Origin: Bacillus sp. BA3
GTDB taxonomy: Bacteria > Bacillota > Bacilli > Bacillales > DSM-1321
NCBI GenBank assembly: GCA_002835675.1
Contig: PIZR01000001.1
Coordinates: 722,075 to 786,074, forward strand
Direction of reading: 5' to 3'
Length of the DNA: 64,000 nt
A model generated the notes under the pieces. That model was not told where the DNA came from, made no database searches, and saw only the letters and a list, made by a program, of their open reading frames with translations. Positions 9,513 through 55,892 of the stretch are shown here, piece after piece. The position numbers were made by a program, and so were the translations under genes. The stretch's first letter is position 1; each line of letters starts with the position of its first letter.

Positions 9513-10656
9513 TATCGAACACCTCATCTAATGAAAATTCATTTACCTTTCGATCTGCGACATCTTCAAGCTCTGGTTTTTCTTGTGTCACTTTTAATGG
9601 ATCAAGTAACCCTTTAGCTTTTTTCTTATCCATATAAGGTACTTGAATTACTCTTTCTTTACCTTGAGTTAAAAGTATCATCCTACCCGCAGTATCTAAG
9701 TCAACTGATTGCTTCAATCCACTTATTTTTGCATTTGTTTCATCTGACTGTTTACCTGATATTCTAAAGGTGAGGTTATTCTTTAATTGTCCACCTAATG
9801 ATTTCGCATCACCACGTTGCATTGACAACATTAGATAAACACCATTAGAACGACCTATACAGGATATACTTTCAATTATCTTCATTATTTTTGGTTTATC
9901 TTTAAGCAATATAACTTCATCAATACAAACCACAATTGTAGGTAGCTTCACTTCTAATTCATAAATACTTTCAACGTCCATCGCATCAAGTAATTTACCT
10001 CTTCGAACCATTTCTTTTTCAATTATTTGAAGAGGAGGGAGGAGTGACTTAGCATCCATATAAACTCCCATTACATGAGGAAGTCGTTTGTATATGCCGA
10101 ATTCTGAAAACTTCAAATCACCAAGTAAGAACTGTATTTCATCTGGTGACTTATGCAGAATCAATGAGGTCAATATTCCCCTAATTAATGAGCTCTTACC
10201 ACTTCCAGTAGTTCCTGTGAGCAACATATGATGTTCTTCTGCCATATCCTTTATATTCATCTTACCTGACCTATCTACACCGCACATAATAGGAATTATT
10301 TTACCCTTCAAATGAGATTGAATTTTTTTAAACTCGAATGGAATATCTTTTTCAATTTCCTTTGAATAACACCACAAGATAAACTTTTTTACCTTACCAC
10401 CTATTACAATGTTATTTCCAAAGCACTGTTTGAATACCCATTCTTGTTTCAAAACTAAATCAGGATTAGCACCATCGGGTAAAGTAAATGTAAATCGAAC
10501 AGCATCATTTTCCTCATCAATATGGACTTCGTGAATCTTAGGATAGCGTGTATACGTCTTTGATTGCGTTGTTGTTTGTTTGTGAATTCCACCAAGCTTA
10601 AATGCCCTCATTAATGAACCACGCAGCTTCATCTTTGCTCTCCATAGCTTCATCAT
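9496..10656 (-). CDS. FtsK/SpoIIIE-type DNA translocase ATPase of the prophage
   Basis: 386-residue soluble ATPase without the membrane and gamma domains of chromosomal FtsK. Walker A is GTTGSGKSS at residues 148-156 and Walker B is IVVCIDEV at 241-248. A sensor-like motif, SNGVYLMLSMQRGDAKSLGG, follows, and SGKQSDETNAKI resembles the FtsK/Tra ATPase signature. Residues 35-120 would be an N-terminal beta-rich domain. It should pump double-stranded DNA. It is the middle gene of a three-gene minus-strand operon: it overlaps the membrane-protein gene by four bases (ATGA) and the relaxation gene by 17. Such ATPases with a relaxation partner and a membrane protein resemble minimal conjugation or phage-plasmid modules. 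Confidence 0.85.
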   Translation of the reverse strand: MMKLWRAKMKLRGSLMRAFKLGGIHKQTTTQSKTYTRYPKIHEVHIDEENDAVRFTFTLPDGANPDLVLKQEWVFKQCFGNNIVIGGKVKKFILWCYSKEIEKDIPFEFKKIQSHLKGKIIPIMCGVDRSGKMNIKDMAEEHHMLLTGTTGSGKSSLIRGILTSLILHKSPDEIQFLLGDLKFSEFGIYKRLPHVMGVYMDAKSLLPPLQIIEKEMVRRGKLLDAMDVESIYELEVKLPTIVVCIDEVILLKDKPKIMKIIESISCIGRSNGVYLMLSMQRGDAKSLGGQLKNNLTFRISGKQSDETNAKISGLKQSVDLDTAGRMILLTQGKERVIQVPYMDKKKAKGLLDPLKVTQEKPELEDVADRKVNEFSLDEVFDSEPKG

Positions 10657-41596: not shown

Positions 41597-43663
41597 ATGT
41601 TGAATAGCAATGATAGACAGAGTGGAAAAATGGAACCGAACCAAAAGAATGAGAGCCTTAAGTATTTATCGAAACGCTGGTCAAGCAAAATTAATAATTT
41701 TTTGGTTCTTTGCATATATGAGCAAAACAATCAATATCATGATTTCAATAATAAATTCAAAACACACAAATTAAAAAATTCGAAGGGGTTTCTAACCTTT
41801 AAAGATGGATTGAACAATAAAAGTTTTGTTATTTGGGAACAAGCATATAAAGAGAATGAAGAGCTATTTGCCAAACTGAGGTTAACGGCGAGAAACGAAA
41901 CATTGTCACATATTGCCCAACATGTCGTATTCTATCTATTAAGTGAATATGAAAGGGTTTCCACAAAAAATCATGCTGTTTTAAAAGAAAAACATTTAAT
42001 GGAAGATTCAATTTACCAAATGGAAAAAAAATTAAAAAATGAAACTTTTTTGGCAGAGAGATCGGTTTGGGAGGAATTTTACGGCTGGTTTAGACTGCTA
42101 GTAAAAGAATGGGTCCTTGAAGAAATAGCCTTATCAATAGGCTTTAATGAAATGGAAAGACTTGATGATCAAGCATTAAATAAGTTATTTTACGAGCATC
42201 TCACAAAACATTTTACTGAAAACACTGGATTTTTATCGAGAGTAACAGATATCGTTAATGAATATATTAAAGAGTGGATCGATAAAATCATGAGTGAATT
42301 TAATATCGAAAACAATACGATCGAAAAGATAGAAAACCTGCTATGTTTTAAGAGGGATTTTCAGACATCAGATTTATTATTATCCACAATGAGGGATTTC
42401 ACTTTCAACTTTACCGTCCAAGATCATTTGCTTGTTATGAATAGTGCTCCATATCAGTCGGTTAGAGATGCAATTTATAAAAAAAATTTCGAAATCATTG
42501 GAAACATTCCTTGGCCTGCAACCCCAATATTAAAGGGTAATACAGAAGGCTTCATACAAATAATCCCTTTTGGGAACGATCATATAACATATGGGCAGAC
42601 GAATGTGAAAGAAGCTTGGAACCGAGTCCACTCTTTATCTGATGTGGATGTAGATGTTTTTGATGCTCTTTGCAGCCTTTTCCTGTCAAAGGCTGCTCAT
42701 AATGAGGAAACAGTGGAAATTTATTTAAATGACCTCCTTTCAATTCGAGGATTAAAGCCAAAACTTGGTGGGTTTGGGCGTCGAGGTGGTTACGAGGCCA
42801 AACAGCGTGCTCAAATTCTGAAATCGCTTACAAATATACAAAGCATATGGATTAACATTAACAAAGCTACCATCTATGAAAAAGGTAAGCCTGTTCAGAC
42901 AAAACTACAAGGGAGGACGTTTATCTTTAAAGATCGTAATGGCGTTGAATATGATATATCAGAAGAAGCAGACAGGAAAAAGATAACGTTCACGATCGAT
43001 AAGGTTTTCGCCAAATATCTTAATGGTTCTGCACGGCAAGTTGCCCTACTTTCAATAAAAGCACTTCAATATAATCCATATAGGCAACTTCGGGAAAAAC
43101 GGCTTACAAGATATCTAAGCTGGCGTTGGAGGACCCAAGCAAGAAAAGGAGACTTTTTACAGCCGAATAAAACCAGTACCCTATTGGAATCGATCGGTGA
43201 AAAATTAAATGACCGAACACCATCTCGAACTAGGGAACGTTTCGAGAAAGCTTTGGATGTTCTACTGGATGATGGCGTTATTGCATCATGGCATTATGAA
43301 AAGTGGGATGAATCCATAGCCGATTATAAAGGATGGGCCAGTATTTGGCTGAATTCGATGATATTAATAGAACCGCCTGATATCATAAAAGAGCAATATC
43401 GCTCCATAGAAAAGAAACAAAAATCACACACTGGCAATCGTCTTGCAAAGCAAGACCAGGCTAACCTGAAGAGCAGCGATCATATTGGTGAGCAAATAAG
43501 AATCACAAGAAAAAAACTCAACCTCTCTTTATATCAATTAGCAGAAGAACTGGAGATATCAGCCCCATATGTCAGTAACATTGAGAGAGGGATGAAAATT
43601 CCATCCTCCAAAATTCAAACGAAAATGAAGAAATGGCTGGAAAAACAGGAACATATTAATTGA
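41597..43663 (+). CDS. Large Rep-like/XRE fusion protein, 688 aa, function unknown
   Basis: Residues 1-360 are not recognised: helical, charged, with many Lys/Glu/Asn. About 350-610 resembles a plasmid-type replication initiator: VEIYLNDLLSIRGLKPK, then GGFGRRGGYEAKQRAQIL, and a winged-helix-like part with ALLSIKALQYNPYRQLREKR followed by SIGEKLNDRTPSRTRERFEK. The last 58 residues (631-688) are a complete XRE helix-turn-helix (GEQIRITRKKLNLSLYQLAEE). AGGAGG precedes the ATG. No plasmid or integrase genes flank it, so it may be a stranded remnant of a mobile element or a chromosomal DNA-binding protein. TACTTTGTATTTAGACG-type AT-rich sequence lies upstream. Confidence 0.6.
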   Translation: MLNSNDRQSGKMEPNQKNESLKYLSKRWSSKINNFLVLCIYEQNNQYHDFNNKFKTHKLKNSKGFLTFKDGLNNKSFVIWEQAYKENEELFAKLRLTARNETLSHIAQHVVFYLLSEYERVSTKNHAVLKEKHLMEDSIYQMEKKLKNETFLAERSVWEEFYGWFRLLVKEWVLEEIALSIGFNEMERLDDQALNKLFYEHLTKHFTENTGFLSRVTDIVNEYIKEWIDKIMSEFNIENNTIEKIENLLCFKRDFQTSDLLLSTMRDFTFNFTVQDHLLVMNSAPYQSVRDAIYKKNFEIIGNIPWPATPILKGNTEGFIQIIPFGNDHITYGQTNVKEAWNRVHSLSDVDVDVFDALCSLFLSKAAHNEETVEIYLNDLLSIRGLKPKLGGFGRRGGYEAKQRAQILKSLTNIQSIWININKATIYEKGKPVQTKLQGRTFIFKDRNGVEYDISEEADRKKITFTIDKVFAKYLNGSARQVALLSIKALQYNPYRQLREKRLTRYLSWRWRTQARKGDFLQPNKTSTLLESIGEKLNDRTPSRTRERFEKALDVLLDDGVIASWHYEKWDESIADYKGWASIWLNSMILIEPPDIIKEQYRSIEKKQKSHTGNRLAKQDQANLKSSDHIGEQIRITRKKLNLSLYQLAEELEISAPYVSNIERGMKIPSSKIQTKMKKWLEKQEHIN

Positions 43664-43971
43664 TCATGAACAAATTAACCCTATTCCTTTATCAGGAGGA
43701 GGGTTGTTTGTGTTGCCATATACATAAAAAGCATTGGCGTTTATCTTGTTCCAATGTCGGGGCTATGAATGTAAGAAGTCGGGGTCATCCAGAACACATA
43801 TTTTTCATTCTATTCTTTTAACCCTGCTGTATATGAGAATTTTCGCCTTTTAAAAATAATTAACTTCCTAATGTTTTAAATGAATTTAACAAACTATCAA
43901 TTTCTAGAATATTAACCCCCTCCATGTAAGATTAGTTCAAAGATATCTTTTTTAAGTAGGGGGGAAGATTC
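43664..43971. other. 308-bp intergenic region upstream of the catabolic operon
   Basis: Holds a good ribosome site (AGGAGGAGGG near 43696) followed by only a short frame, and AT-rich sequence. No clear terminator or cre site seen. It must contain the operon promoter, but no convincing -35/-10 pair could be chosen. Confidence 0.4.
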
Positions 43972-46155
43972 ATGATAGAAAATAAACATTCAAACAATTC
44001 TCATGAAACGCTTGAGCCGTTATTCAATCCAAGATCCATCGCAATCCTAGGTGCCTCCAAGAGTGAATACAAAATCGGGAATTTACAGGTCAAAGCCCTT
44101 TTGGATGGTCAATTTAATGGGGAGATTTACCCAATCAACCGTAAAGCAAAAGAGATTGAAGGGATTAAGTGCTATGAATCTTTGTCCGATGTTCCGAATG
44201 AAATTGATTTAGCCATTTTTTGCCTTGGGGCGAATCAGGTGCAGCAAGGATTAGAGGAATGTGCACGAAAGAAAGTGAAAGCAGCCATCATTTTTGCTGC
44301 TGGTTTTTCTGAAACAGGAAAAGAAGGCATCAAGCAACAGGAATTGTTAACAGATATTGCAAGAAAGAATGGAATACGGATAGTGGGTCCCAACTGTGTT
44401 GGATTAGTGAATTTGTCGAATGGCTTGATTGGCACTTTTTCCCCTGCCATTCAATCAGTGCCAATAAATGACCAAAGAGGGGTAGGATATGTCTCCCAAA
44501 GCGGTGCGTTTGGTGTTTTGACTTATATGGCAGCAGCTCAGAATGGATTGAGTTTCAATTATTTCGTGAGTGTAGGAAATGAAATGGAAACTGAATTCTC
44601 GGATGTCATTGAATATATGATCCATGATTCAAAAACAAGTGTGATAAGCGGCTACTTGGAAGGTGCAAAAAACCCGGAAAAATTACGAAGCCTGGCAAAA
44701 GAGGCATTGGATAGAAATAAACCCATAATTGTCATGAAAACCGGAAGGAGCAAGGCTGGAAGCAGAGCTGCTGCTTCACATACAGGTTCACTTGCGGGAT
44801 CGGATCAAGTATATGATGCCTTTTTTAAGCAGGCTGGCATCGTAAGGGCCGATGATTATGAAGATATCATATCTTTTTCAAAGCTATTCCTATCAAAGAA
44901 GCTTCCAAATGGACGCAATACGGTTATTATCACCAGTTCAGGAGGGAGGGGAATAAATGAAGCGGATCGCTGTGAATCATACGGACTTACCATCAACCCA
45001 CTGAGCTCAAAGACAATAACAGAAATCAAACGTAATATACCCGAATATGCAAGCGCTTCCAACCCTGTGGATTTAACAGCGGCCGCATCTGTTTCCAATC
45101 CTGAGTTATTTCTTGCACCATTGAGGGCACTTGTAGAAGATCCGGATGTCGATAACATCATTTTTACTGAGTTTCCCTTTAATTGGACTGCCGAGCACCC
45201 TTTACTTCAAGAGTTTATTGAAATTTGTACAAGCTCAGATAAATTTGTTTTCATTACCACTTTTCCATTAGACGGCATGACCCTTCCCCTTGGTACCGAT
45301 GAGCTCGTGAAAAATGGCATACCGGTGATCCCTGGGAACCTTAATCCGATAAGAGGGCTGGCGAAACTAGTTGAATACAGTGAATTTTATCGAAAAAATC
45401 TTGAAAATCAAGTTTCCAATAGTACAAAGAAAATAGAGAAACAAAACTTACAGGACATGCTGAAGCCCGGTACTGCTTTAAGTGAATCCGAAGCTAGTAT
45501 GGTTTTGGAAAGATACAGGATTGCTACCACGAAGCGTGTTATAGCTGCAAATGAAAACGATGCAGTACAAATCGCTAACAGTATCGGTTATCCGGTTGTG
45601 TTAAAGGTCGATTCACCGGATATACCACATAAGACGGAAGCTAATGCCATTCGATTGAATGTAAAGACCGATCTTGAGGTCAGGAAAGCTTTTACAGATA
45701 TTAAGCGGAATGCACTAAATTATAAACCTGAAGCTACAATAAACGGCATTTCCGTTCAGGAAATGTTACCTGATGGAGTGGAAATCATTGTTGGTGCAAG
45801 TGATGATCCTGTATTTGGACCGGTTATCATGTTTGGTCTAGGGGGAATATTCGTTGAGATCTACAAAGATATTTCGTTTAGAATTGCTCCACTGTCAAGG
45901 CAAGATGCACTTGAAATGATTGAAGAAATCAAGGGCAAGGACATTTTAATGGGAGCACGCGGGAAAGCACCGGTTGATATTGAAGCCATCATTGATGTGT
46001 TATTAAAGGTTTCCTCTATAGTTACAGATTATAAACATTCCATTGACGAATTGGATATTAATCCATTGCTGGTCTATGAAAATGGAATCAAGGCCGCTGA
46101 TGCCATGATTGTTGTAAAAAATAATGTGGATGATAATACCGTTATTAGGGGGTAG
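43972..46155 (+). CDS. ATP-grasp acyl-CoA synthetase (acetate-CoA ligase, NDP-forming family)
   Basis: 727 residues fusing both subunits of the NDP-forming acyl-CoA synthetases. Order: CoA-binding Rossmann domain (about 10-140, LFNPRSIAILGASKSEYKIG), succinyl-CoA-ligase-like flavodoxin domains (about 150-470) with H270 in ASHTGSLAGSDQVYDAFF, and a C-terminal ATP-grasp domain (about 500-725) with YPVVLKVDSPDIPHKTEANAI and FGLGGIFVEIYKD. It would activate a free carboxylic acid to its CoA thioester at the expense of ATP. First gene of the operon; GGGGGAAG precedes the ATG. Its stop is eight bases before the next start, so translation is coupled. The substrate acid is unknown. Confidence 0.85.
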   Translation: MIENKHSNNSHETLEPLFNPRSIAILGASKSEYKIGNLQVKALLDGQFNGEIYPINRKAKEIEGIKCYESLSDVPNEIDLAIFCLGANQVQQGLEECARKKVKAAIIFAAGFSETGKEGIKQQELLTDIARKNGIRIVGPNCVGLVNLSNGLIGTFSPAIQSVPINDQRGVGYVSQSGAFGVLTYMAAAQNGLSFNYFVSVGNEMETEFSDVIEYMIHDSKTSVISGYLEGAKNPEKLRSLAKEALDRNKPIIVMKTGRSKAGSRAAASHTGSLAGSDQVYDAFFKQAGIVRADDYEDIISFSKLFLSKKLPNGRNTVIITSSGGRGINEADRCESYGLTINPLSSKTITEIKRNIPEYASASNPVDLTAAASVSNPELFLAPLRALVEDPDVDNIIFTEFPFNWTAEHPLLQEFIEICTSSDKFVFITTFPLDGMTLPLGTDELVKNGIPVIPGNLNPIRGLAKLVEYSEFYRKNLENQVSNSTKKIEKQNLQDMLKPGTALSESEASMVLERYRIATTKRVIAANENDAVQIANSIGYPVVLKVDSPDIPHKTEANAIRLNVKTDLEVRKAFTDIKRNALNYKPEATINGISVQEMLPDGVEIIVGASDDPVFGPVIMFGLGGIFVEIYKDISFRIAPLSRQDALEMIEEIKGKDILMGARGKAPVDIEAIIDVLLKVSSIVTDYKHSIDELDINPLLVYENGIKAADAMIVVKNNVDDNTVIRG

Positions 46156-46162
46156 AGAGCAA

Positions 46163-46621
46163 ATGGAACTTGATCATTTGACCGGATTAACAGGAGCTGA
46201 ATTTATATTTGAAGTCGAAAAGAGGCATATCCGCCAATTTGCTGAGGCAATTGGTGATTTTAATCCCTTATATGTGGATGAAGAATATGCTGCGAAAACT
46301 TCATATGGTGGCATTATAGCACCGCCAACCTTCCCGATTGCCATTGGTCAGGATAGCGGCGAAAGCCTTGACTTGGGCCTCGAACAAAAGAGAATGCTGC
46401 ATGGTGAACAGGAGTTTATTTATTCCCGCCCCATTAGGCCAGGTGATAGATTGCATTGTCAGATGAAAGTATCAAATGTATACGAACGGGAAGGAAGAAA
46501 AGGAAAGATGCAGTTCTTGGTACTTGATACAGAAATGAAAGATGAGTCAGGTGAAATGGTGGTCATAAGCCGAACAAATATCATCTATCGGCCCATTAGG
46601 AGTGATCACGCTCCTGTCTGA
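46163..46621 (+). CDS. MaoC-type dehydratase with N-terminal-type hotdog (subunit 1)
   Basis: 152 residues, one hotdog fold. FAEAIGDFNPLYVDEEYAAKTSYGGIIAPPTFP (about 28-60) is the MaoC_dehydrat_N pattern; the catalytic D/H dyad of the hydratase-2 motif is not complete here, since the usual His (IAHGM) is replaced by IIAPPTF. Such a partner subunit normally pairs with a catalytic MaoC protein. ATG 46163 has GGGGGTAGAGAG upstream; a longer frame from 46124 overlaps the synthetase. It probably forms a heteromer with the product of 46698, as ChsH1-ChsH2 do. Confidence 0.8.
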   Translation: MELDHLTGLTGAEFIFEVEKRHIRQFAEAIGDFNPLYVDEEYAAKTSYGGIIAPPTFPIAIGQDSGESLDLGLEQKRMLHGEQEFIYSRPIRPGDRLHCQMKVSNVYEREGRKGKMQFLVLDTEMKDESGEMVVISRTNIIYRPIRSDHAPV

Positions 46622-46697
46622 AAAAACATGATGATAATTAATGGCATTAAAGTATCAATATCAAATTCCAGCAAACTGAAAACAGGAGGAATCAGGG

Positions 46698-47114
46698 ATG
46701 TTGAACTATGAAAGTTTACATGAAGGTCAAAGACTTGAATCTCTCTTCAAGCCACCTGTAACCAAGGTACAACTTGTTAAATATGCCGGAGCTTCAGGGG
46801 ATTTTAATCCATTACATACCGATGATGCATTCGCACAAGAGATTGGCATGCAGGGTGTGATTGCTCATGGAATGCTTGTAATGGGCTTTCTCGGTGAATA
46901 TGTAATGAAACTGGCTGGTGATCAAGCTGTACCGGCAAATTTTAAAATGAGATTTGGTGCTGTAACCGTACCAGGAGATCGGATCACGTGTTCTGCTTTC
47001 GTTAAAAATTTGTATGAAGAAAGAGGTCAACGCTTTGTAAGGCTGGACATTATTGCAGAAAAGGAACCAGAACAAGTTGTCGGTTCAGGTGAAGTGGTTT
47101 TACGGATTAAATAA
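46698..47114 (+). CDS. MaoC-type (R)-specific enoyl-CoA hydratase (subunit 2)
   Basis: 138 residues, one hotdog fold with the full hydratase-2 motif: GASGDFNPLHTDDAFAQEIGMQGVIAHGMLVMGF (split over residues 31-64), where Asp36 and His41 region and IAHGM give the active-site pair. It hydrates trans-2-enoyl-CoA to 3-hydroxyacyl-CoA. It follows the N-type MaoC gene by 76 bases with AGGAGG before its ATG. Together the two resemble the ChsH1-ChsH2 hydratase of the mycobacterial igr operon, except that the DUF35 domain fused to ChsH2 there is a separate protein here (48325). Confidence 0.85.
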   Translation: MLNYESLHEGQRLESLFKPPVTKVQLVKYAGASGDFNPLHTDDAFAQEIGMQGVIAHGMLVMGFLGEYVMKLAGDQAVPANFKMRFGAVTVPGDRITCSAFVKNLYEERGQRFVRLDIIAEKEPEQVVGSGEVVLRIK

Positions 47115-47149
47115 AGGTTACAAGTTATCAAATAGTAGGAGGGTTTATT

Positions 47150-48313
47150 ATGGAAAGCATTAAAAATCGCTATGCCATTGTCGGTGTAGGGGAAAGTGAG
47201 CGTTCTAAGAATTCCGGTACAACCCCGTTACATTTGGCGTTGGACGCTGCTCGAGCTGCATTGAATGATGCTGGGCTTCAAGCGAAAGATATTGATGGGT
47301 TCATGAGCTATTCGGAAAACGATTCTTGTGCATCTCATCAATTAGCAACATATTTAGGGGTCCGTCCCAAATATGTTAAGGATATTTTGGGCGGGGGAAG
47401 CAGTACCGAAATGCTGATAGCTGACGCTGTTGGATTAATCGAATCAGGTCAATTGAATACGGTGTTGATTTATCGTTCCATGAATGGACGCTCAGGCGTG
47501 AGGATGGGCGGAGGCGGATGGGATGTAAATATGCTTCAAACAGCCATAGAAGGCGGAAGCTTCATCATTCCTTACGGTGCTGGCAGTCCGGCTCAGTGGT
47601 TCGGACTTTTTGCGACACGACATATGCATGAAACCGGGCTGACAGAGGAACATCTTGGGCATGTCTGTTTAGCTTTTTACGAACATGCTCAAAGGAATCC
47701 TAAAGCATACTTTTATGGTAAACCATTAACGATGAAGGAATATCTTAAAACGCCCTATTTAAGCTATCCATTTAAAAAACATGATTTCTGCATGGAATCC
47801 GATGAAGCAAATGCAATCATTGTCACTTCAGCAGAACGTGCTGAAGGATGCAAGTCCAGACCGGTATACATCATGGGTTTATCTGCTAGGCAGTGTGTGT
47901 CCCATGCACATTATTGGAATGATTTAACCGAAGTTGCTGCTGACTATGTCGCGCCTGAAGTATATAAAATGGCTGGAGTAAAACCTGAAGATATTGACGT
48001 TGCATCCATATATGACTGTTATAGCTGGGTTGTACTTCGGCAGTTGGAGGCTTATGGATTTGCACCGCGCGGAGAGGTCGGTGACTTTGTAGCCGAAGGA
48101 AACTTGCGGATCGGCGGGAAATTACCTTCGAATACAGCAGGAGGAATGCTATCGGAAGGATATACACATGGAATGAATAACGTATTGGAAATCGTACGTC
48201 AAGTTCGTCACGAATACAAAGGAACCGATCGGCAAGTGGAAAATTGTGAAATCGGAATCTGTACTGGCTGGGCTGGACCGGATATGGCCGGTGCCATGAT
48301 TTTAAGAAATTAG
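47150..48313 (+). CDS. Thiolase-fold lipid-transfer-like protein lacking the thiolase Cys, probable retro-aldolase subunit
   Basis: 387 residues with the thiolase/SCP-x fold: NRYAIVGVGESERSKN, LALDAARAALNDAGLQAKDIDG, and DPAGA-type C-terminal half. At the place of the nucleophilic Cys the sequence is DILGGGSSTEML (81-85), with no Cys. The usual GHPxG near the end is EGYTHGMN, with Tyr338 instead of His. Mycobacterial Ltp2, an aldolase that cleaves steroid 3-hydroxyacyl-CoA, has the same losses and uses a Tyr at about position 344. Partner is the DUF35 protein 12 bases downstream, as in the Ltp2 complex. Cleavage by retro-aldol reaction is inferred. Confidence 0.78.
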   Translation: MESIKNRYAIVGVGESERSKNSGTTPLHLALDAARAALNDAGLQAKDIDGFMSYSENDSCASHQLATYLGVRPKYVKDILGGGSSTEMLIADAVGLIESGQLNTVLIYRSMNGRSGVRMGGGGWDVNMLQTAIEGGSFIIPYGAGSPAQWFGLFATRHMHETGLTEEHLGHVCLAFYEHAQRNPKAYFYGKPLTMKEYLKTPYLSYPFKKHDFCMESDEANAIIVTSAERAEGCKSRPVYIMGLSARQCVSHAHYWNDLTEVAADYVAPEVYKMAGVKPEDIDVASIYDCYSWVVLRQLEAYGFAPRGEVGDFVAEGNLRIGGKLPSNTAGGMLSEGYTHGMNNVLEIVRQVRHEYKGTDRQVENCEIGICTGWAGPDMAGAMILRN

Positions 48314-48324
48314 GAGGGAACAAA

Positions 48325-48741
48325 ATGGAATACCAAAAACCTATTCCGCTAAAAACACAGGATAATAGTCCATATTGGGATGGCGCAGATCGCCATGAAC
48401 TGATTCTTCAAAAATGCAATTGCTGTCATCAATATTCCCATCCTCCCGGTCCGAGCTGTGCAAAATGTGGCAGTTCGGAACTTAGCTGGGAAAGCCAAGG
48501 CAGCGATATTAACGGTAAAGTCTATTCATATATCGTTTCCTATCGGCCCTTCTTACCTGGATTCCAGGATGATTTACCGCTTGTAATTGCCATAGTCGAA
48601 TTAGATACTCTGCCCCAGGTCAAGTTAATCGGAAATATTCTGCATTGTTCACCAGAAGATATTGAAATGGGTATGCCAGTTAAGATGGTTTGGAAGGAAA
48701 TTACGGATGAACGGTCACTGCCGCAATGGATTCAGTCATAG
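48325..48741 (+). CDS. DUF35 zinc-ribbon/OB-fold protein, partner of the thiolase-like protein
   Basis: 138 residues. The zinc ribbon has C31-x2-C34 and C45-x2-C48 (KCNCCHQYSHPPGPSCAKCG). The OB fold follows with GKVYSYIVSYRPFLPGFQDDLPLVIAIVEL. DUF35 proteins bind acyl-CoA and are obligatory partners of thiolase-like or aldolase proteins. Short spacing to 47150 and AGGAGGG before the ATG indicate a stoichiometric complex. In mycobacterial igr the equivalent domain is fused to ChsH2. Confidence 0.9.
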   Translation: MEYQKPIPLKTQDNSPYWDGADRHELILQKCNCCHQYSHPPGPSCAKCGSSELSWESQGSDINGKVYSYIVSYRPFLPGFQDDLPLVIAIVELDTLPQVKLIGNILHCSPEDIEMGMPVKMVWKEITDERSLPQWIQS

Positions 48742-48778
48742 AAGTGTAATTTGCAAGCATTAAAGGAGGAAGATATCT

Positions 48779-49975
48779 ATGGATTTTTCGTTTACAACCA
48801 AGGAAGAAGAATTCCGTCTTGAATTGAGAGCGTGGCTTGAAGGAAATTTACCTGAAGGTTGGCTTGAAGGAACCAGTAATGTTTCAAAAGATGAAAGAGA
48901 GTATGCCGTTTTCCTCAGGAATTGGCAAAGGAAATTATATGAAGGTGGCTGGGCAGCGATTGCCTGGCCAAAAAAATACGGCGGACGAGAAGCGACGTTG
49001 ATGGAGGAATTAGTTTATCAACAGGAAATGGTTAGAGTAAAGGCTCCGGCGCTTGTGAATTATGTAGGCATCCATATGGTGGGACCCACTCTAATGCAGA
49101 TTGGAACGGACGAACAAAAAGCAAAATATATCCAAAAAATTCTCACAGGGGAGGAAGTATGGTGTCAAGGATATTCCGAACCGAATGCTGGATCCGATTT
49201 ATCCGCCATTCAAACAAGCGCCGTAAAGGACGGAGATCGGTGGATCATTAATGGTCAGAAGGTTTGGACAAGCTTTGGCCACTTAGCTGATCGATGCTTT
49301 TTACTGGCTCGGACGAATCGTTTTGATAAAAAGCATAAAGGGATAACGGTTTTCCTATTGGATATGAATCAGCCGGGGGTGGAAACAAGGCCCATCATTC
49401 AAATGGATGGTCAGCATGATTTTAATGAAGTCTATCTGAATGATGCGATTGCATACGATGCTGAAATAGTTGGGGAGGTAGATGAAGGCTGGAAAGTTAC
49501 GATTGCATTGCTTATGCATGAAAGAACGGGAATCGGAGCACAAGTTTTTACATTGGAGCAACAATTTAATGAACTTGTAGGGTTAGCTAAAGAATTGAAG
49601 GAAGATGAAGATCCATTGATGGACAATCCGCTTGTTCGTCATACAATGGTAGATTTATATACTCGCTCACGCGGTTCACTTTTGAACTATTATCGTAATT
49701 TAACTAAGACATTAAAAAATGGTCATCCTGGTGCAGAAGGTTCGATGGATAAATTGATGGTAAGTGAACTTACTAAAGAGCTGTTGTCCCAATCCATTTC
49801 ATTACAAGGACATAAGGGTATTCTGTGGAAAGAAGATGCAATCACCTCCAACTCATATTGGCAGGATAATTATCTTTATTCTTTTGGACAAACAATTGGA
49901 GGTGGAACGAGCGAAATTCAAAAGAACACTATTGGGGAAAGAATTCTAGGTCTACCAAAAGATATGGGACGTTAA
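48779..49975 (+). CDS. Acyl-CoA dehydrogenase, alpha subunit candidate
   Basis: 398 residues, full ACAD fold with FAD site. Motifs: EVWCQGYSEPNAGSDLSAIQTSAV (about 120-143) and the C-terminal FGQTIGGGTSEIQKNTIGERILGLPKD, the FadE signature at which flavin and CoA bind. It introduces the alpha-beta double bond into acyl-CoA. A second, divergent ACAD gene starts 21 bases downstream, which is the pattern of heterotetrameric ACADs (FadE28-FadE29) for bulky substrates. AAGGAGGA precedes the ATG. Cytoplasmic; electrons would go to ETF. Confidence 0.85.
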   Translation: MDFSFTTKEEEFRLELRAWLEGNLPEGWLEGTSNVSKDEREYAVFLRNWQRKLYEGGWAAIAWPKKYGGREATLMEELVYQQEMVRVKAPALVNYVGIHMVGPTLMQIGTDEQKAKYIQKILTGEEVWCQGYSEPNAGSDLSAIQTSAVKDGDRWIINGQKVWTSFGHLADRCFLLARTNRFDKKHKGITVFLLDMNQPGVETRPIIQMDGQHDFNEVYLNDAIAYDAEIVGEVDEGWKVTIALLMHERTGIGAQVFTLEQQFNELVGLAKELKEDEDPLMDNPLVRHTMVDLYTRSRGSLLNYYRNLTKTLKNGHPGAEGSMDKLMVSELTKELLSQSISLQGHKGILWKEDAITSNSYWQDNYLYSFGQTIGGGTSEIQKNTIGERILGLPKDMGR

Positions 49976-49995
49976 GTTGAAAAGGGGGAATGAAG

Positions 49996-51132
49996 GTGGA
50001 TTTTTCTTTAAATCAAGAACAAGAAATGTTCCGCGGATATGTCCGGAAATATTTAGATGGTGCCGGGCAAACAAAAACGGCCCGTGCATACATAGAGGGT
50101 GAAACTGGATCTCTAAGGGCCTTATTTTCGGGGCTTGCCGAATTAGGATGTACAAGCATTAATATATCGGAAGATTACGGGGGAATGGGCTTAGGTCACC
50201 TTGATTTAATACCTGTACTTGAAGAAACCGGCCGTTCTTTATTCCCGGGTTTATACTTAGAAACCAATGCACTAGCTGTGCCATTATTAGAGAAATTCGG
50301 TACTGAAGAACAAAAAGGTAGGTATTTAGCAGAAATTTCGGCTGGTACAAAAACATTCTCGCTAGCTTGGTTAGAACCAGGTGGGAGTTACGGACCTTCT
50401 GGTATCAACCTGGAGGCAAAATCCCTAAACGGTCAGTTGATATTAAGCGGAGTGAAAACAATGGTTCCAGATGCTGAGTTGGCTGATCATTATATAGTGT
50501 TAGTCCGCACAGGCAAAGGTAACCGAAATGAAGGGATTACATTACTTATCGTCGATCGAAATGAAACGAATTTGACGCTTGAAAGCCAGAAAAACATTGA
50601 CGAAACCCGACAATTGGCAGCATTGGCTTTCAATGATGTTGAAATTCCAATGGATCAGGTACTTGGATCGATGCATCAAGGGTGGGATGCCATCCAAGAA
50701 GGATTACTCTCTTTCAATGCGGCTCTCTCGGCAGTAATAGTCGGGTGTATGGAGAAAGTGGTGGAAATGGCAGCAGAGTATGCGAAGATTCGTGAACAGT
50801 TTGGTCAGCCGATAGGGAGATTCCAAGCGATTAAACATAGGATCGTCGATATGAAAATGGATCTCGAAACAGCCAGATCTTTAGCTTATTATGCTAACTG
50901 GGCATTGGAAAGCGGTGCAGAAGATCGAGTTCAAGCCATATCCTGTGCACGAATATTTGCCACGAAAGCATTCATACGTATTTCGTCATACAATATTCAA
51001 ATTCATGGTGGAATCGGGTTTACAGAGGAAATTGATTGTCACCTTTTTGTTAAGCGTGCAAGGTTCTATGAGAATTATTTAGGAAGCACTGAACAATATT
51101 ACAAACAGGCCGCTACGGCATTAGGTTGGTAG
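49996..51132 (+). CDS. Acyl-CoA dehydrogenase, beta subunit candidate
   Basis: 378 residues, shorter and diverged from its neighbour, with the C-terminal IQIHGGIGFTEEIDCHLFVKRA motif of FadE28-like proteins and FGQPIGRFQAIKHRIVDMKMDLE in the helical part. The N-terminal substrate loop is less conserved (SLAWLEPGGSYG instead of the EPxAGSD pattern), which fits a non-catalytic or half-site partner. GTG 49996 is chosen: GGGGG at 49984-49988 is seven bases before it but only one base before ATG 49990. Probably assembles with the 48779 product. Confidence 0.82.
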   Translation: MDFSLNQEQEMFRGYVRKYLDGAGQTKTARAYIEGETGSLRALFSGLAELGCTSINISEDYGGMGLGHLDLIPVLEETGRSLFPGLYLETNALAVPLLEKFGTEEQKGRYLAEISAGTKTFSLAWLEPGGSYGPSGINLEAKSLNGQLILSGVKTMVPDAELADHYIVLVRTGKGNRNEGITLLIVDRNETNLTLESQKNIDETRQLAALAFNDVEIPMDQVLGSMHQGWDAIQEGLLSFNAALSAVIVGCMEKVVEMAAEYAKIREQFGQPIGRFQAIKHRIVDMKMDLETARSLAYYANWALESGAEDRVQAISCARIFATKAFIRISSYNIQIHGGIGFTEEIDCHLFVKRARFYENYLGSTEQYYKQAATALGW

Positions 51133-51187
51133 AAAAGCAGAAGGGGTTACATTCATGTCTTACTAAGCCGAAGGGTGGAGATGAAGG

Positions 51188-52663
51188 TTGGAAATTTCAT
51201 ATAAAGTGAAAGAGTACCAGAATATGATTAATGGCGATCTGGTTCCCGCTTCTTCCGGGAAGCGGATTGAGAGCTACGATCCGTCAACAGGCAGGGTTTG
51301 GGCAACCATTCCTTGCAGTATGGCCCAAGATGCTGAAGCGGCGGTAGAAGCAGCCCGGAGCGCTTTTGCCGATTGGTCTTCGAGACCAGCTATGGACCGG
51401 GGAGCTTACCTGAGGAAAATAGGTGACTTGGTCGTAAAGCATGGTGAAGAGCTAGCTGAGTTGGAATCAAGAGACAATGGTTGGGTGATCAGGGAAACGA
51501 GCCACGGCCTAATTCCTAGTTTAGCAAGCCTTTGGTATGATGCAGCAGGTGCTACAGCTATTGGAAGTAAGGGAGATACCGTCCAATTGGGACCTTCAAG
51601 TGTAGGTTATTCATTGAGGGAACCTCTAGGGGTAGTAGTAGGAATCCTTCCATGGAACTCACCGCTTTTCACTTTTACCATTAAAGCGGCTTATGCGATT
51701 GCGGCAGGAAATGCTGTCATTATCAAACCATCTGAATTGGCTTCTGTCGCTTCATTACGATACGGAGACCTGATTAATGAAATCCTCCCGCCAGGAATCC
51801 TCAATGTCGTATCAGGAACTGGAGCGGAAGTGGGAGATACTCTAGTAAGCCATCCAGATGTGAACAAAATCAGTCTGACAGGTTCTGGAGGAACGGCAAG
51901 GGCGATAGCACAAACGACCGCACGAAATCCTAAGCCCATGATTTTGGAACTTGGCGGAAAATCGCCAAACATAGTCTTTGCGGATGCAAACCTTGAAAAA
52001 GCAGCACAAGGGGTGACAAACTTTGGGATATTTAGCGGCAACGCAGGCCAACTATGTGTAGGAGGATCGAGGATTCTAATTCAAAGGTCCATATTCGATG
52101 AAATGATCATTAGGATGAAAGAAGTGATGGAACAGCAAATTCAACTGGGTGATCCATTGAATCCAGCCATTTCAATGGGACCGATCGCTAACGTTGCTCA
52201 ATATGAAAAAGTCCTCTCATATATAGAATTAGGCCAAAAGGAAGGAGGGGAAATCATCATCGGTGGCCGTCATGGAGGTGTAAGCCTATTACCTGATGAA
52301 CCCAAATTAGCTGACGGCTATTGGGTTGAGCCAACATTGATCAAGGTCAATAGTAATTCTCTCCGTATTTGTCAAGAAGAAATCTTCGGTCCGGTAGCGA
52401 CCGTTATCCCCTTTGATACAGAAGAGGAAGCCATCACCATAGCTAATGACAGTGATTTTGGTTTAGGAGCTGGAGTATGGACCTCGAATTTGGATCGGGC
52501 ACACCGTATGGTCCGCAAACTGGAATCGGGTAATGTGTGGGTGAACTTGTTTCGCAGGGTGGGGCCTGAACTCCCATTTGGAGGCCAAAAAAGCAGTGGA
52601 TTTGGAACGGATACCATTCTTGAATATACCCGTGAAAAGACCGTTTATATGGAAATAGGATGA
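51188..52663 (+). CDS. NAD(P)-dependent aldehyde dehydrogenase
   Basis: 491 residues, ALDH superfamily. LELGGKSPNIVFADANLEKA places the catalytic Glu at 254. GNAGQLCVGGSRI places the nucleophile Cys at 290. FTGSG-type NAD site (ISLTGSGGTARAIAQ) and LPFGGQKSSGFGTD are present. It oxidises an aldehyde to the acid. The start is TTG with GGGTGGAG seven bases upstream. In the operon context the substrate is most simply the aldehyde released by retro-aldol cleavage in the preceding steps. Confidence 0.88.
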   Translation: MEISYKVKEYQNMINGDLVPASSGKRIESYDPSTGRVWATIPCSMAQDAEAAVEAARSAFADWSSRPAMDRGAYLRKIGDLVVKHGEELAELESRDNGWVIRETSHGLIPSLASLWYDAAGATAIGSKGDTVQLGPSSVGYSLREPLGVVVGILPWNSPLFTFTIKAAYAIAAGNAVIIKPSELASVASLRYGDLINEILPPGILNVVSGTGAEVGDTLVSHPDVNKISLTGSGGTARAIAQTTARNPKPMILELGGKSPNIVFADANLEKAAQGVTNFGIFSGNAGQLCVGGSRILIQRSIFDEMIIRMKEVMEQQIQLGDPLNPAISMGPIANVAQYEKVLSYIELGQKEGGEIIIGGRHGGVSLLPDEPKLADGYWVEPTLIKVNSNSLRICQEEIFGPVATVIPFDTEEEAITIANDSDFGLGAGVWTSNLDRAHRMVRKLESGNVWVNLFRRVGPELPFGGQKSSGFGTDTILEYTREKTVYMEIG

Positions 52664-52719
52664 TTTCTTATGAGATTAGCAGGGAATTTGCTGTAAATAG
52701 TGGACTGGGGGTTCTGTAA

Positions 52720-53997
52720 ATGGCACAAGATTCTAAAGGCATTTTTTATGGATGGTATGTAGTGTTGTGTGGCTTTTTCATCATGTTCGCCGGTTTCTCG
52801 ATAATAAATTCCCTGCACAGTTTGTTCATGGTCCCGGTTACAGAGGATTTAGGAATAAGCAGAACCACTTTTTCCATTGCACTTTCCATTGCTGGCCTTG
52901 GAGTGGCCGTTGCTTCTCCGATCATGGGTAAATTACTCACTAAAGGGAATATGAAATTGATCATGTCAATTTGCGTAGTAATGGCCGGAGCAGGATTCAT
53001 GTCATACTCGCTTGCAAACTCAGCTGTATATTTTAGTATCATTGGCTTTGTAATTGGCATCTGTGTTGCAGGCTTTTCCAATATTCCCATATCAATCATG
53101 TTAACCAATTGGTTTTATGAGAAAAAAGGGAAGGCCATGGGTTTGGCATTTGCGGGATCTGGAATTGGGGCAGCGGTACTCAGTCCGATCATTACAAAAT
53201 TAATCTCAAATTATGGTTGGAGAACGGCCTACGTAATAGCAGGGATACTGATAATTGTCTTAACATTACCCTTGGTTCTTCTATTTGCAAAGAAAAGTCC
53301 CGCAGAAAAGGGCCTTGTTCCATTGGGCTCTGACAAAATGGAAATGGCCGAAACTAATGTGGAATCTGAACAGAATGGCTTAACGATGGGGGAAGCAAAG
53401 AAGACAGCAATGTTTTGGATTTTCGTACTTGGAATCGTTTGTTTTGCATTAGTCGCTGGCGGGGTGCAAATGCATATCCCGGCATACTTGATCGATATAG
53501 GGCATCCAGCCATATTTGCTGGCACCATTTTTGGAATACTATCTTTGGCAAATACGGTTGGGAAATTGATTTTAGGAGCTGTTTTGGATAAGTACGGTAC
53601 GGCAGGCGGCGCCATTTATGTAGGCGCCTGCATGACGATTGCTATGGCAGCGCTATTGTTAGCGAAGACACAGGCATTCGCATTCTTATTCGCCATCGCC
53701 TTTGGCTTTAGCATTGTGATATCCACTCTTGGGCCTCCCTTCATGACAAATGATATCTTTGGAAAGAAGGACTTCGGCTCCATCTTTGGCATAGTGCAAG
53801 TTTTTTTTGTGGCGGCAGGCTCATTGGGTGTGATCGTTTCGGGTGTAATCTATGATTTGACAGAAAGTTACCGTGCAGCATGGATCTTCTTTCTTTGTTT
53901 ATTCATCTTCAGTATGGTTTGTGTACTAGCGGCAAATAGCATGAAAAAAAAGACGATCAGAAGAATCAAAAATATTTCCGACCAAAAAATTGGATAA
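52720..53997 (+). CDS. MFS transporter, OFA/monocarboxylate type
   Basis: 425 residues with 12 expected helices. FYGWYVVLCGFFIMFAGFSI at the start, the central EKGLVPLGSD linker and the GWRTAYVIAGILIIVLTLPLVLL stretch match the OFA/MCT branch (monocarboxylate or oxalate-formate carriers) of the MFS. As the last gene of the operon it probably imports the acid that the first enzyme activates. GGGGGT precedes the ATG. A weak hairpin follows at 54055. Confidence 0.82.
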   Translation: MAQDSKGIFYGWYVVLCGFFIMFAGFSIINSLHSLFMVPVTEDLGISRTTFSIALSIAGLGVAVASPIMGKLLTKGNMKLIMSICVVMAGAGFMSYSLANSAVYFSIIGFVIGICVAGFSNIPISIMLTNWFYEKKGKAMGLAFAGSGIGAAVLSPIITKLISNYGWRTAYVIAGILIIVLTLPLVLLFAKKSPAEKGLVPLGSDKMEMAETNVESEQNGLTMGEAKKTAMFWIFVLGIVCFALVAGGVQMHIPAYLIDIGHPAIFAGTIFGILSLANTVGKLILGAVLDKYGTAGGAIYVGACMTIAMAALLLAKTQAFAFLFAIAFGFSIVISTLGPPFMTNDIFGKKDFGSIFGIVQVFFVAAGSLGVIVSGVIYDLTESYRAAWIFFLCLFIFSMVCVLAANSMKKKTIRRIKNISDQKIG

Positions 53998-54054
53998 TTT
54001 GACAGGGCTAAAAGTCATATGGAAGGGTTTGTTTTCCATTAAACAAAACAGGAT

Positions 54055-54084
54055 AAAGAGCGGCAGGCTGGATTGCTGCTCTTT
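54055..54084. terminator. Hairpin after the catabolic operon
   Basis: AAAGAGCGGCAG pairs imperfectly with CTGCTCTTT-type sequence around a short loop. Little T run on the + strand, so termination efficiency is uncertain. Confidence 0.45.
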
Positions 54085-54111
54085 ACCTTACTGTTAAACT
54101 ATATGATTGTT

Positions 54112-54843
54112 TTAAAATTTTTCACTCCATTCCTCATCTTCAAGCGGCACACCATTAGTACTGATATATTCTACAATCATGTTTCCATGTTTAAGGACTC
54201 TATCGTTTTTTAAGGCATTGATGACTGCGGTAAAACGGTCTTCATCTGCGTCCTGTTTCTTACGTGAAAGGGTAATCCGTATGGTTGGGGAAACATCATA
54301 ATCTTTATAGCTGGCCGGTATATTCGGATCAATCTTCAATTCTTTCCCGACACCCTCATCAAACACCAAGAGTAATTGATTATAATCGCCTATTTCTTCT
54401 TGAATCTCCTCCCAATCTTCATTCTCTGTAATATCTCCCAGTTCCTTGGATATCAACACGTCACCTAGTTCTTTTTCAACATAAGGCCGGATTTCTTTTT
54501 CTGCATCATCTTGCCATTTTTCAGATAGGAATGTATCCTCCATTTCCCCTGTTTCATCATTGAAGAAAACTAGAAATTGAGTCCCATATTTTTCATGTTT
54601 CACTTTAGCTGCGTATTCAAAATGGCCCCAGTTTCCCATATTATCGTATAAGACATCATATATTTCGGTTCCTTCATCAAAAGTTTTCTCTAAATATCGT
54701 TCAGCTTGATCCCGGACTTTCTTTTCTTCATCAGGATCTGCTTTCATACTTTGTGTGAATGAAAACATAAGAAGCATCACACCGGACAAGATGATTAAAA
54801 AAACACCTAGTAAAGCCAGTAAAATCTTTTTTGTTTTACTCAA
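54112..54843 (-). CDS. Membrane-anchored protein of unknown function, 243 aa
   Basis: TTG start with AGGAGGGTG upstream. The N-terminal membrane segment (ILLALLGVFLIILSGVMLLMFSF, about 7-29) anchors an acidic extracellular domain rich in Asp/Glu (about 35-243). Patterns such as VFFNDETGEMEDTFLSEKW suggest a PepSY-like alpha/beta element. No catalytic motif. It converges with the catabolic operon. Function unknown. Confidence 0.6.
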   Translation of the reverse strand: MSKTKKILLALLGVFLIILSGVMLLMFSFTQSMKADPDEEKKVRDQAERYLEKTFDEGTEIYDVLYDNMGNWGHFEYAAKVKHEKYGTQFLVFFNDETGEMEDTFLSEKWQDDAEKEIRPYVEKELGDVLISKELGDITENEDWEEIQEEIGDYNQLLLVFDEGVGKELKIDPNIPASYKDYDVSPTIRITLSRKKQDADEDRFTAVINALKNDRVLKHGNMIVEYISTNGVPLEDEEWSEKF

Positions 54844-55007: not shown

Positions 55008-55892
55008 TTGGAAACCTATCAAAGAAAAATGAATCATAATCGGGATGAATACAGAAAGTTGCGTTGGAAACAGCATCGTCTACAAGTTACAGGTTTATTC
55101 GATGCCGTATTTTCGAAAAAAGCGTTCGTTGATAAAGTGGCTATCGTTGGTGCAGGCAATTGCGATGATTTGGATTTAGAATATCTGGCAACTAAGTGCA
55201 ACTCCATATATCTATTTGATATTGATATGGAAAGTATGGAAAAGGGTACGGCGAATTTGCCTGAACGTACCCGTGAGAAAATTCAACTTGTTGCAATCGA
55301 TGTAACAGGCCTCGATAAAGTGGATTTTGATCGCCACCTATCTTCCATGCTGAATCGTGGTGAAACGGCAAAGGGAATTATTCAATATTTAAAGGATACC
55401 GAGAATCGGTTAGGTCAGCTTTCTGAAAGGGTTTTTGCTAATTATTATAATGATTTTGATATCGTGGCAACTTCCGCCATTTATACCCAACTATTTTATA
55501 ATTGGGCCAAGGAACTGCTTTCTGATCATGCAAACCACTATCAGAATAAAGACGCAGAAGAGCTGAAAAATGGAATTTTAGATTTAAGGGATGAAATCGT
55601 TCGTACAATGAATCACTCTATATCTAAATGTGCCAAGCAAAAAGGATTCTGTATTACATGGTCTGATATCTTAAAAATCGAACCTGAGTATATGGATACC
55701 ATTAATGAAGGGCTGAATGCCATCTTTGCATTGGCCTCGAACGTGGGATACGGGGCAGCATTGATAGGGGTAAAAACGTTTATTGAAAAAGTGGAAAAAA
55801 GTGAATTAAGCCTTCGATACTGGACATGGGATTTTAATGCTAACAAACAGTATTTGACCATTGGCATTATCGGGAGATTGAATGGGTTGTAA
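55008..55892 (+). CDS. SAM-methyltransferase-like Rossmann protein
   Basis: 294 residues. KVAIVGAGNCDDLDLEYLATKCNSIYLFDID (about residues 44-74) is a Rossmann motif I with a GxGxCxD loop and an acidic residue at the end of strand 2, as in class I methyltransferases. No conserved catalytic NPPY-type motif follows. The rest is mainly helical. TTG start with GGGGGAGATC upstream. It could be a methyltransferase or a nicotianamine-synthase-like protein. The substrate is unknown. Confidence 0.55.
   Translation: METYQRKMNHNRDEYRKLRWKQHRLQVTGLFDAVFSKKAFVDKVAIVGAGNCDDLDLEYLATKCNSIYLFDIDMESMEKGTANLPERTREKIQLVAIDVTGLDKVDFDRHLSSMLNRGETAKGIIQYLKDTENRLGQLSERVFANYYNDFDIVATSAIYTQLFYNWAKELLSDHANHYQNKDAEELKNGILDLRDEIVRTMNHSISKCAKQKGFCITWSDILKIEPEYMDTINEGLNAIFALASNVGYGAALIGVKTFIEKVEKSELSLRYWTWDFNANKQYLTIGIIGRLNGL

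Follow-up and report, generated by a model that had tools for sequence, protein, structure and literature searches.

A putative operon for aldolytic side-chain shortening in Bacillales, with an Ltp2-like thiolase-fold protein and a candidate regulator of initiator fold

What does a row of nine acyl-CoA-type catabolic genes do in a Bacillus chromosome, and what controls it? The row lies at positions 43972–53997 of a 64,000-nucleotide stretch of Bacillus sp. BA3 (contig PIZR01000001.1, positions 722,075 to 786,074 of the forward strand), which is referred to below as the window. An earlier note, made from the letters alone, had read it as an igr-like aldolytic acyl-CoA degradation operon, after the igr operon of mycobacteria. 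We computed the gene set, its conservation, the catalytic residues, the tree position and fold match of the thiolase-fold protein, and the association of a direct repeat with a neighbouring regulator gene. Our analysis makes it likely that the operon carries out one turn of aldolytic shortening of the side chain of a carboxylic acid, mostly under a 688-aa regulator of initiator fold.

The gene order and parts given in the earlier note were confirmed by coordinates and Pfam matches for all nine open reading frames (ORFs), which lie on a single strand with short gaps:

43972..46155, + strand: NDP-forming acyl-CoA ligase, 727 aa, putative acid activation (Pfam ATP-grasp_5/Succ_CoA_lig; also NCBIfam)
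46124..46621, + strand: MaoC-like hydratase subunit A (MaoA), HadA-type, predicted inert partner with Tyr50 for the catalytic His (FAS1_DH_region/MaoC)
46698..47114, + strand: MaoC-like hydratase subunit B (MaoB), HadB-type, catalytic Asp35/His40 present (MaoC_dehydratas)
47150..48313, + strand: predicted Ltp2/Sal-type thiolase-fold aldolase, 387 aa, with Tyr288, Cys290 and Tyr338, and Gly83 for the nucleophilic Cys (Thiolase_C_1)
48325..48741, + strand: stand-alone DUF35 protein, putative aldolase partner, with a four-Cys zinc ribbon C31/C34/C45/C48 (zf-ChsH2 and OB_ChsH2_C)
48779..49975, + strand: acyl-CoA dehydrogenase, alpha-type subunit (ACAD1), with Glu248 and without the usual FAD-binding GGxG (Acyl-CoA_dh)
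49990..51132, + strand: acyl-CoA dehydrogenase, beta-type subunit (ACAD2), with FAD-binding R268/F271, Q337 and GGxG and no catalytic Glu (Acyl-CoA_dh)
51188..52663, + strand: NAD(P)-dependent aldehyde dehydrogenase (ALDH), Cys290 and Glu254 conserved (Aldedh)
52720..53997, + strand: carrier of the major facilitator superfamily (MFS), OFA-like, in each of 4 genomes with it the MFS closest to the bile_salt_MFS model, but below the cut-off of that model (MFS_1)

The ligase and first MaoC ORFs overlap as called (46155 versus 46124), and the second ATG, at about 46163, is the likelier start of subunit A.

The thiolase-fold protein was searched against 84,980 species genomes. This gave 278 relatives, of which the best 80 were kept, with 79 loci, 44 of them in Bacillales. 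These 44, one per species and drawn from the best 79 of the 278 matches, include metagenome-assembled genomes (MAGs), and their Sporosarcina and Neobacillus members are closely related, so that the loci are not independent. Flanks of 10 kb were compared, which end short of the AAHS carriers at 20–24 kb named in the earlier note, and core genes were counted by tblastn with identity thresholds. The core MaoA-MaoB-LTP-DUF35-ACAD1-ACAD2 was found on one strand in 44/44 Bacillales loci, in identical order in 43 and with the MaoC pair shifted downstream in the other one. Because this six-gene core is conserved across loci, a chance row of genes is excluded. The outer parts vary: the ligase is NDP-forming in 29/44 loci and belongs to AMP-forming families in 13/44; the ALDH is present at 50% identity or more in 33/44; both electron-transfer flavoprotein (ETF) genes, alpha and beta (etfBA), lie inside the cluster in 9/44; the MFS type of the window occurs in 1/44, and two other MFS families in 25/44. 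Within the order the operon is patchy: 8 of 397 genomes have it, counting that of the window. By its gene content and distribution it is a putative discrete accessory catabolic unit. As the earlier note had supposed, no description of it in Bacillaceae was found in the open-access literature that we searched.

Among the matches kept, the closest aldolase outside Bacillales (59%) is on a betaproteobacterial MAG contig (L041), which also carries an NDP-forming ligase match, DUF35 and, by reading, a TctC-like receptor; the dehydrogenase pair was unmatched there. Its lineage is a possible donor or recipient. The window's own genome has a second, distant LTP-like gene (G000:C1:279884-280867, L095), with another MaoC pair and an acyl-CoA dehydrogenase gene nearby.

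The thiolase-fold protein was aligned, for the window and the 79 loci, with four thiolases, three of them of solved structure and one, a Cys thiolase, from genome G139. In the nucleophile column the window's protein has Gly83, and Gly stands there in 80/80 sequences, so the earlier note was right that the thiolase Cys is missing. It was also exact in placing Tyr338 where thiolases have the His of GHP: this column is Tyr in 80/80, and two MAFFT modes agreed. Since EGYTHGMN was one of the six search patterns behind the locus set, the invariance of Tyr338 in the distant relatives is partly selected. Tyr338 aligns with Tyr344 of TcLtp2, and Tyr288, likewise invariant over the 80 sequences, with its Tyr294. 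Residue 290, on which the earlier note is silent and which aligns with Cys304 of CtSal, is Cys in all 46 members of the aldolase's clade (the window, the 44 Bacillales loci and L041) and Ala in all 34 more distant relatives. The motif YDC[YF] is found in 46/46 of the clade, in place of YDHF with an oxyanion-hole His296. According to PMC12329534, TcLtp2 has Tyr294 as base, Tyr344 as acid and His296 in the oxyanion hole, and CtSal has Tyr302 and an essential Cys304, with Gln352 replacing Tyr344; our alignment put a Thr of CtSal, next to a gap, at the Tyr338 column, and Gln352 was taken from that source instead. The predicted active site Tyr288/Cys290/Tyr338 is, residue by residue, a combination of the Ltp2 and Sal sets.

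A true thiolase with a displaced Cys was rejected on the nucleophile column, which is Gly throughout. Some of the distant YDAF relatives carry a Cys four residues upstream of this position. An SCP2 thiolase is marked by the nucleophilic Cys, HDCF and GHP, for which the protein has Gly83, YDCY and Tyr338. Against NCBIfam PRK07855, taken as a mark of Ltp2/igr-type aldolases, it scored 333.4 bits, under the curated cut-off of 469. The G139 gene used in the alignment, which lies 10 kb upstream of the operon there and is a second LTP-like gene, is an ordinary Cys thiolase within a cluster for a TRAP transporter.

By sequence, the nearest solved structures are TcLtp2 (6ok1_A, E 1.3e-74), a Sphaerobacter protein (4u4e) and CtSal (9myr). 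Structure prediction agreed: 6ok1, 4u4e and 9myr rank above all thiolases for the AlphaFold2 model (pLDDT 85.8, pTM 0.88). The tree was built from 17 of the 45 Bacillales sequences, 10 of the 34 YDAF sequences and references, among them the thiolase 7yvy from Pyrococcus furiosus. In it thiolases split off (100/99), CtSal pairs with 4u4e (96/87), and the Bacillales clade joins the YDAF clade (96/96) and then TcLtp2 (92/86). The aldolase falls on the TcLtp2 side (96/83 and 92/86) and not with Sal. Because several reference branches are long, this placement carries moderate weight. The protein is, on alignment and tree, a separate lineage, a third one of predicted acyl-CoA retro-aldolases. Its sister clade (34 loci, L045–L078; Chloroflexota, Rokubacteria, Alphaproteobacteria, Actinomadura and others) has YDAF instead of YDC[YF], and many of these loci have a DUF35 match after the aldolase.

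At lower similarity, the relatives include PhlABC, MucABC and benzoylsuccinyl-CoA thiolase, and a thiolase-fold protein with DUF35 might on that account be an acyltransferase or an aldolase working in the synthetic direction. We regard this as very improbable: the nucleophilic Cys is missing, the tree puts the protein with Ltp2, and the ligase, dehydrogenases, hydratases, ETF and ALDH together make a degradative series. The Cys-less fold, the Tyr pair, the tree and this gene series all point to aldolytic rather than thiolytic chemistry, as the earlier note had proposed.

The partner enzymes were examined by residue. MaoB retains Asp35/His40, and MaoA has Tyr50 at the His position. ACAD1 Glu248 aligns with Glu247 of chain 4x28_A, which we take to be the catalytic residue, and ACAD1 is without the FAD motifs; R268, F271, Q337 and GGxG are all in ACAD2, which has no catalytic Glu. 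The retained residues are at least 97% conserved over 40–44 aligned sequences each. Glu on one subunit and FAD motifs on the other is the ChsE-type arrangement, here judged by residues only. Because active-site and FAD residues are divided between subunits in this way, both pairs look like heteromers that have a single active site apiece, an arrangement seen in the breakdown of steroid side chains, and the complementary pairs described in the earlier note are borne out at this level. Heteromery alone is no proof of a steroid substrate, since the MaoC pair is nearer to HadA/HadB than to ChsH1/ChsH2 and the dehydrogenases match PimC/PimD best in NCBIfam, below cut-off. The separate DUF35 partner of the earlier note is indeed a stand-alone gene, whose product finds TcChsH2-DUF35, the partner chain of TcLtp2 in the same entry (6ok1).

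From these data we infer every reaction, the class of substrate, the binding to DNA and whatever sign the regulation may have. The MFS carrier would import the acid and the ligase would make its CoA thioester. The heteromeric acyl-CoA dehydrogenase would then give a 2-enoyl-CoA, passing electrons to ETF, and the MaoC heterodimer would hydrate it. The aldolase-DUF35 pair would cleave the 3-hydroxyacyl-CoA by a retro-aldol step into acetyl-CoA (or propionyl-CoA) and an aldehyde; Tyr288 is the probable base, and Tyr338 or Cys290 the candidate proton donor. The ALDH would oxidise the aldehyde to the shortened acid; its taking the released aldehyde, put forward in the earlier note, fits the operon. 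Transcription would in most lineages be controlled by the 688-aa protein, probably via repeats of 22-bp period before the first operon gene. These two elements lie upstream of the nine genes:

41597..43663, + strand: putative regulator, 688 aa, with a predicted initiator-type fold at residues about 270–600 and an XRE-type helix-turn-helix (HTH) at about 620–685, at the C-terminus
43756..43784, + strand: putative operator GTCGGGG-N15-GTCGGGG, a direct repeat of 22-bp period with copies at 43756 and 43778

The regulator gene, which lay outside the span covered by the earlier note, is co-located with the operon in 31/44 loci. The predicted fold of its core resembles that of iteron-binding replication initiators (RctB, R6K pi); the VIA rows barely cover the protein beyond residues 273–599 and the HTH. 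Thirty members of the regulator family matched 21 Pfam families (E up to 0.1), none of which is an initiator family. In one genome (G340, a single 5.49 Mb contig) the gene is chromosomal. Among the 13 loci without it, 11 have a PucR-type regulator and one a sigma-54-type regulator.

The repeat was found in the 308-bp gap between regulator and ligase by a repeat search over four close genomes, with GTCGGGG twice, 22 bp apart, and a degenerate third copy one period upstream, at about 43734–43746. With at most one mismatch per half-site, 50 upstream regions gave a spacing of 22 in 24, of 21 in 2, and no pair at the remaining spacings between 14 and 33; none turned up in 200 mononucleotide shuffles. 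In 24 of the 50 regions the repeats lie 116–212 bp ahead of the first gene of the operon. When 52 regions were scored, 12/14 or better at spacing 22 was reached by 24/38 regions with the regulator and 0/14 without it, and by no region at 12 other spacings; genes were here taken from a simple ORF caller, and L006, which has an exact pair, and L092 were scored at a wrong start. Both sets hold the named loci and further genomes, some maybe of the same species. The set of 45 loci (the window and the 44) was scanned on both strands, and the pair was present in 21, always on the operon strand ahead of the first operon gene, with no copy elsewhere in these loci: in 21/32 loci with the regulator and 0/13 without (Fisher p 3.7e-5, kinship ignored). 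In L009 and L010 the series runs to three copies, 22 bp apart. A search of 18 whole genomes gave three exact pairs: every operon genome of the window's genus has a single one, located at the operon. When one mismatch is allowed, a further pair appears at the operon of G067 and two more in genomes that lack the operon, one apiece; as a reversed control pattern gave five one-mismatch matches, these are at noise level. We read the 688-aa protein as one that would recognise the repeats as an initiator recognises iterons, and would control mainly this operon.

The main rival to regulation is that the gene and its repeats are what is left of an integrated plasmid origin that carried the operon, with no regulatory role. 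The regulator belongs to the same protein family as plasmid-borne proteins of replication regions, and the repeats are iteron-like. Weighing in the same direction, and so against a regulatory role, a gene for a replication-relaxation protein adjoins one for an FtsK/SpoIIIE-like ATPase 31 kb upstream in the window (8832–10656, minus strand), possibly the remnant of an integrated element. However, the repeats hold their place before the first operon gene even where the regulator gene is downstream, as in eight Sporosarcina loci with the pair, in which it follows the operon. They are missing in 13/13 loci without the regulator gene, most of which have another regulator type. Pfam matches in the window's flanks (32.7–41.2 and 54.1–63.8 kb) are to a permease, an arginase, a flippase, hydrolases and transporters, with no replication or partition gene among them. 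In a tree of 13 of the 32 operon-linked regulators and 24 others, the 13 form one clade apart from the 24 (100/100). We hold the origin remnant to be improbable.

Distant relatives of the regulator are found on plasmids (27 records), where the annotation says no more than HTH regulator or hypothetical protein. Six plasmid regions (L135–L140) were examined; several of the relatives lie in replication regions, and 4/6 have upstream repeat arrays. In L140, on a 68-kb Peribacillus psychrosaccharolyticus plasmid, 18 copies of TGGTGCACTTTT (at most two mismatches), mostly at steps of about 39 bp, precede the regulator relative, upstream of 3617. L135 and L136 have no convincing upstream array (4 and 6 scattered copies, against 4 and 3 in one shuffle each). 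Upstream repeats of 19 non-operon homologues were mixed, a few being clear (for example L122, L126, L127 and L133) and many at shuffled level; TRF found none in L116. The plasmid relatives probably make up an initiator family, as yet without a name, of large Bacillaceae plasmids. One relative of this mainly Bacillaceae family is on a 361-kb plasmid record labelled Klebsiella grimontii (CP079755.1), where mislabelling or contamination is possible.

On balance we lean, with some reserve, towards a plasmid replication initiator which, on Bacillales chromosomes, was domesticated into a single-target operon regulator, its iterons becoming the 22-bp-period operator, next to a third retro-aldolase lineage with a combined Sal/Ltp2 site. 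No earlier description of this regulator-operator pair, or of an initiator serving in this way, was found in the open-access literature that we searched.

Which acid is shortened was approached through co-occurring genes in the 8 operon genomes and 10 genomes of the window's genus without the operon, 18 in all. The 3-ketosteroid 9-hydroxylase KshA was found in 0/8 and 0/10, and steroid mineralisation by the aerobic 9,10-seco route was rejected on its absence from all 18. Matches to a ring-hydroxylating dioxygenase (3/8 versus 5/10), an intradiol dioxygenase (1/8 versus 3/10), the gentisate dioxygenase family (2/8 versus 5/10, all below the curated cut-off) and BoxB (one weak match per group, 1/8 at only 19 bits and 1/10) are not enriched in operon genomes, and benzoate or gentisate as linked product was rejected on this ground. 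None of the tested ring-cleavage routes travels with the operon, as far as these gene matches tell, and they lend no support to the sterol or arylpropionate substrates suggested in the earlier note.

An arylpropionate or similar aryl side chain is a tentative candidate of fairly low probability. Dehydrogenation would give a cinnamoyl-CoA, which would be hydrated and cleaved by retro-aldol to an aryl aldehyde, which the ALDH would oxidise to the aryl acid. This chemistry fits, and the ALDH relatives include aromatic and phenylacetaldehyde types, although such family matches are too general to indicate a substrate. The NDP-forming ligase superfamily includes a feruloyl-CoA synthetase (PMC6388921), a kinship that is one hint at aryl acids. 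The four aryl-acid markers above, however, do not follow the operon.

A steroid or bile-acid side chain, which would make the operon the Bacillales version of the bile-acid C5 module, appears rather unlikely. The gene set equals StdA1-Scd1AB-Shy1-Sal1-Sad, and steroid enzymes come out as the best structural relatives of the aldolase, DUF35 and ACAD1. In 4/4 genomes that carry it, the operon MFS outscores every other MFS against bile_salt_MFS, the model for conjugated-bile-salt carriers (213, 211, 197 and 190 bits; next-best MFS 147.5), which may be one hint at a bulky acid, but these scores are far under the cut-off of 400 and most lineages use other MFS types. The bile salt hydrolase family is found in 4/8 operon genomes and 0/10 others, a contrast confounded because the ten comparison genomes are of one genus and the four positives of other genera; only one of the four matches is strong (373.5 bits), and the three operon genomes that belong to the comparison genus lack any. 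The absence of KshA counts against this substrate too.

Downstream, one further element was noted:

54054..54085, + strand: terminator-like hairpin 3′ of the carrier gene, 13 pairs, weak T tail

This hairpin is no evidence by itself, since fewer terminator-like sites were found in the region (7) than are expected by chance (9.0). Sigma-70-like promoters were uninformative (17 found, 25.2 expected), and a search with a single sigma-54 consensus 5′ of the ligase (43001–44000) gave no match. Two ORFs directly after the operon (54112–54843 and 55008–55892) have no Pfam match.

Thiolase-fold aldolytic side-chain cleavage has so far been characterised in Actinobacteria and Proteobacteria that degrade steroids. 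Finding a compact operon of this kind in at least 44 Bacillales genomes, and without the steroid ring-cleavage marker tested, suggests a broader range of substrates for this chemistry; the third active-site arrangement (Tyr, Cys, Tyr) could also help to decide which residue donates the proton. If our reading of the regulator is true, it offers a replication initiator whose conversion into a transcription factor can be traced and whose iterons can still be made out, and the plasmid relatives would stand for an initiator family so far unrecognised.

Taken whole, the operon resembles the proteobacterial bile-acid C5 module more than it does igr. That module consists of StdA1, Scd1AB, Shy1, Sal1 and Sad (PMC8399759). 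Since Sad oxidises the aldehyde in the bile-acid C5 cycle, the ALDH is expected and not an addition, as the earlier note had taken it to be. With the module it shares a ligase, a heteromeric dehydrogenase, a MaoC hydratase, DUF35, a Cys-less aldolase with YDCY and an ALDH (PMC8399759 and PMC12329534). The module has the Shy fusion, whereas here two MaoC proteins and DUF35 are separate; its DUF35 zinc ribbon is Cys3His, here four Cys; and CtSal has Gln352 (PMC12329534) for Tyr338. The present genes also form one compact operon, travel with none of the ring-degradation markers tested and belong to Bacillota.

The name igr-like stands in part. TcLtp2 is the nearest characterised aldolase in tree and fold, with Tyr294/Tyr344 corresponding to Tyr288/Tyr338, and igr also has dehydrogenase and hydratase pairs (ChsE1-E2, ChsH1-H2) with one active site each and a DUF35 partner. 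However, its motif is YDHF and not YDC[YF], the MaoC pair here is of HadA/HadB type, and its hydratase partner ChsH2 is fused to DUF35, here a separate gene. The igr operon is not known to include a ligase or an ALDH; the operon here includes both, and a carrier. By these features it would work like a Sal module with an aldolase of the Ltp2 lineage, and it is a member of neither. HadAB, the mycobacterial (3R)-hydroxyacyl-ACP dehydratase, also made of one active and one inert subunit, is the best family match of both MaoC proteins, but the matches are far under curated cut-offs and the operon context is another.

The regulator-operator pair is more surprising than the aldolase operon itself. 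Its protein shares with R6K pi, F RepE and Vibrio RctB the predicted fold of residues 270–600, and with iteron initiators direct repeats at about two-turn spacing as presumed DNA target. Unlike them, it is chromosomal and beside a catabolic operon, matches no Pfam initiator family, and has an extra N-terminal helical region and the C-terminal XRE HTH, and its repeats stand 5′ of metabolic genes.

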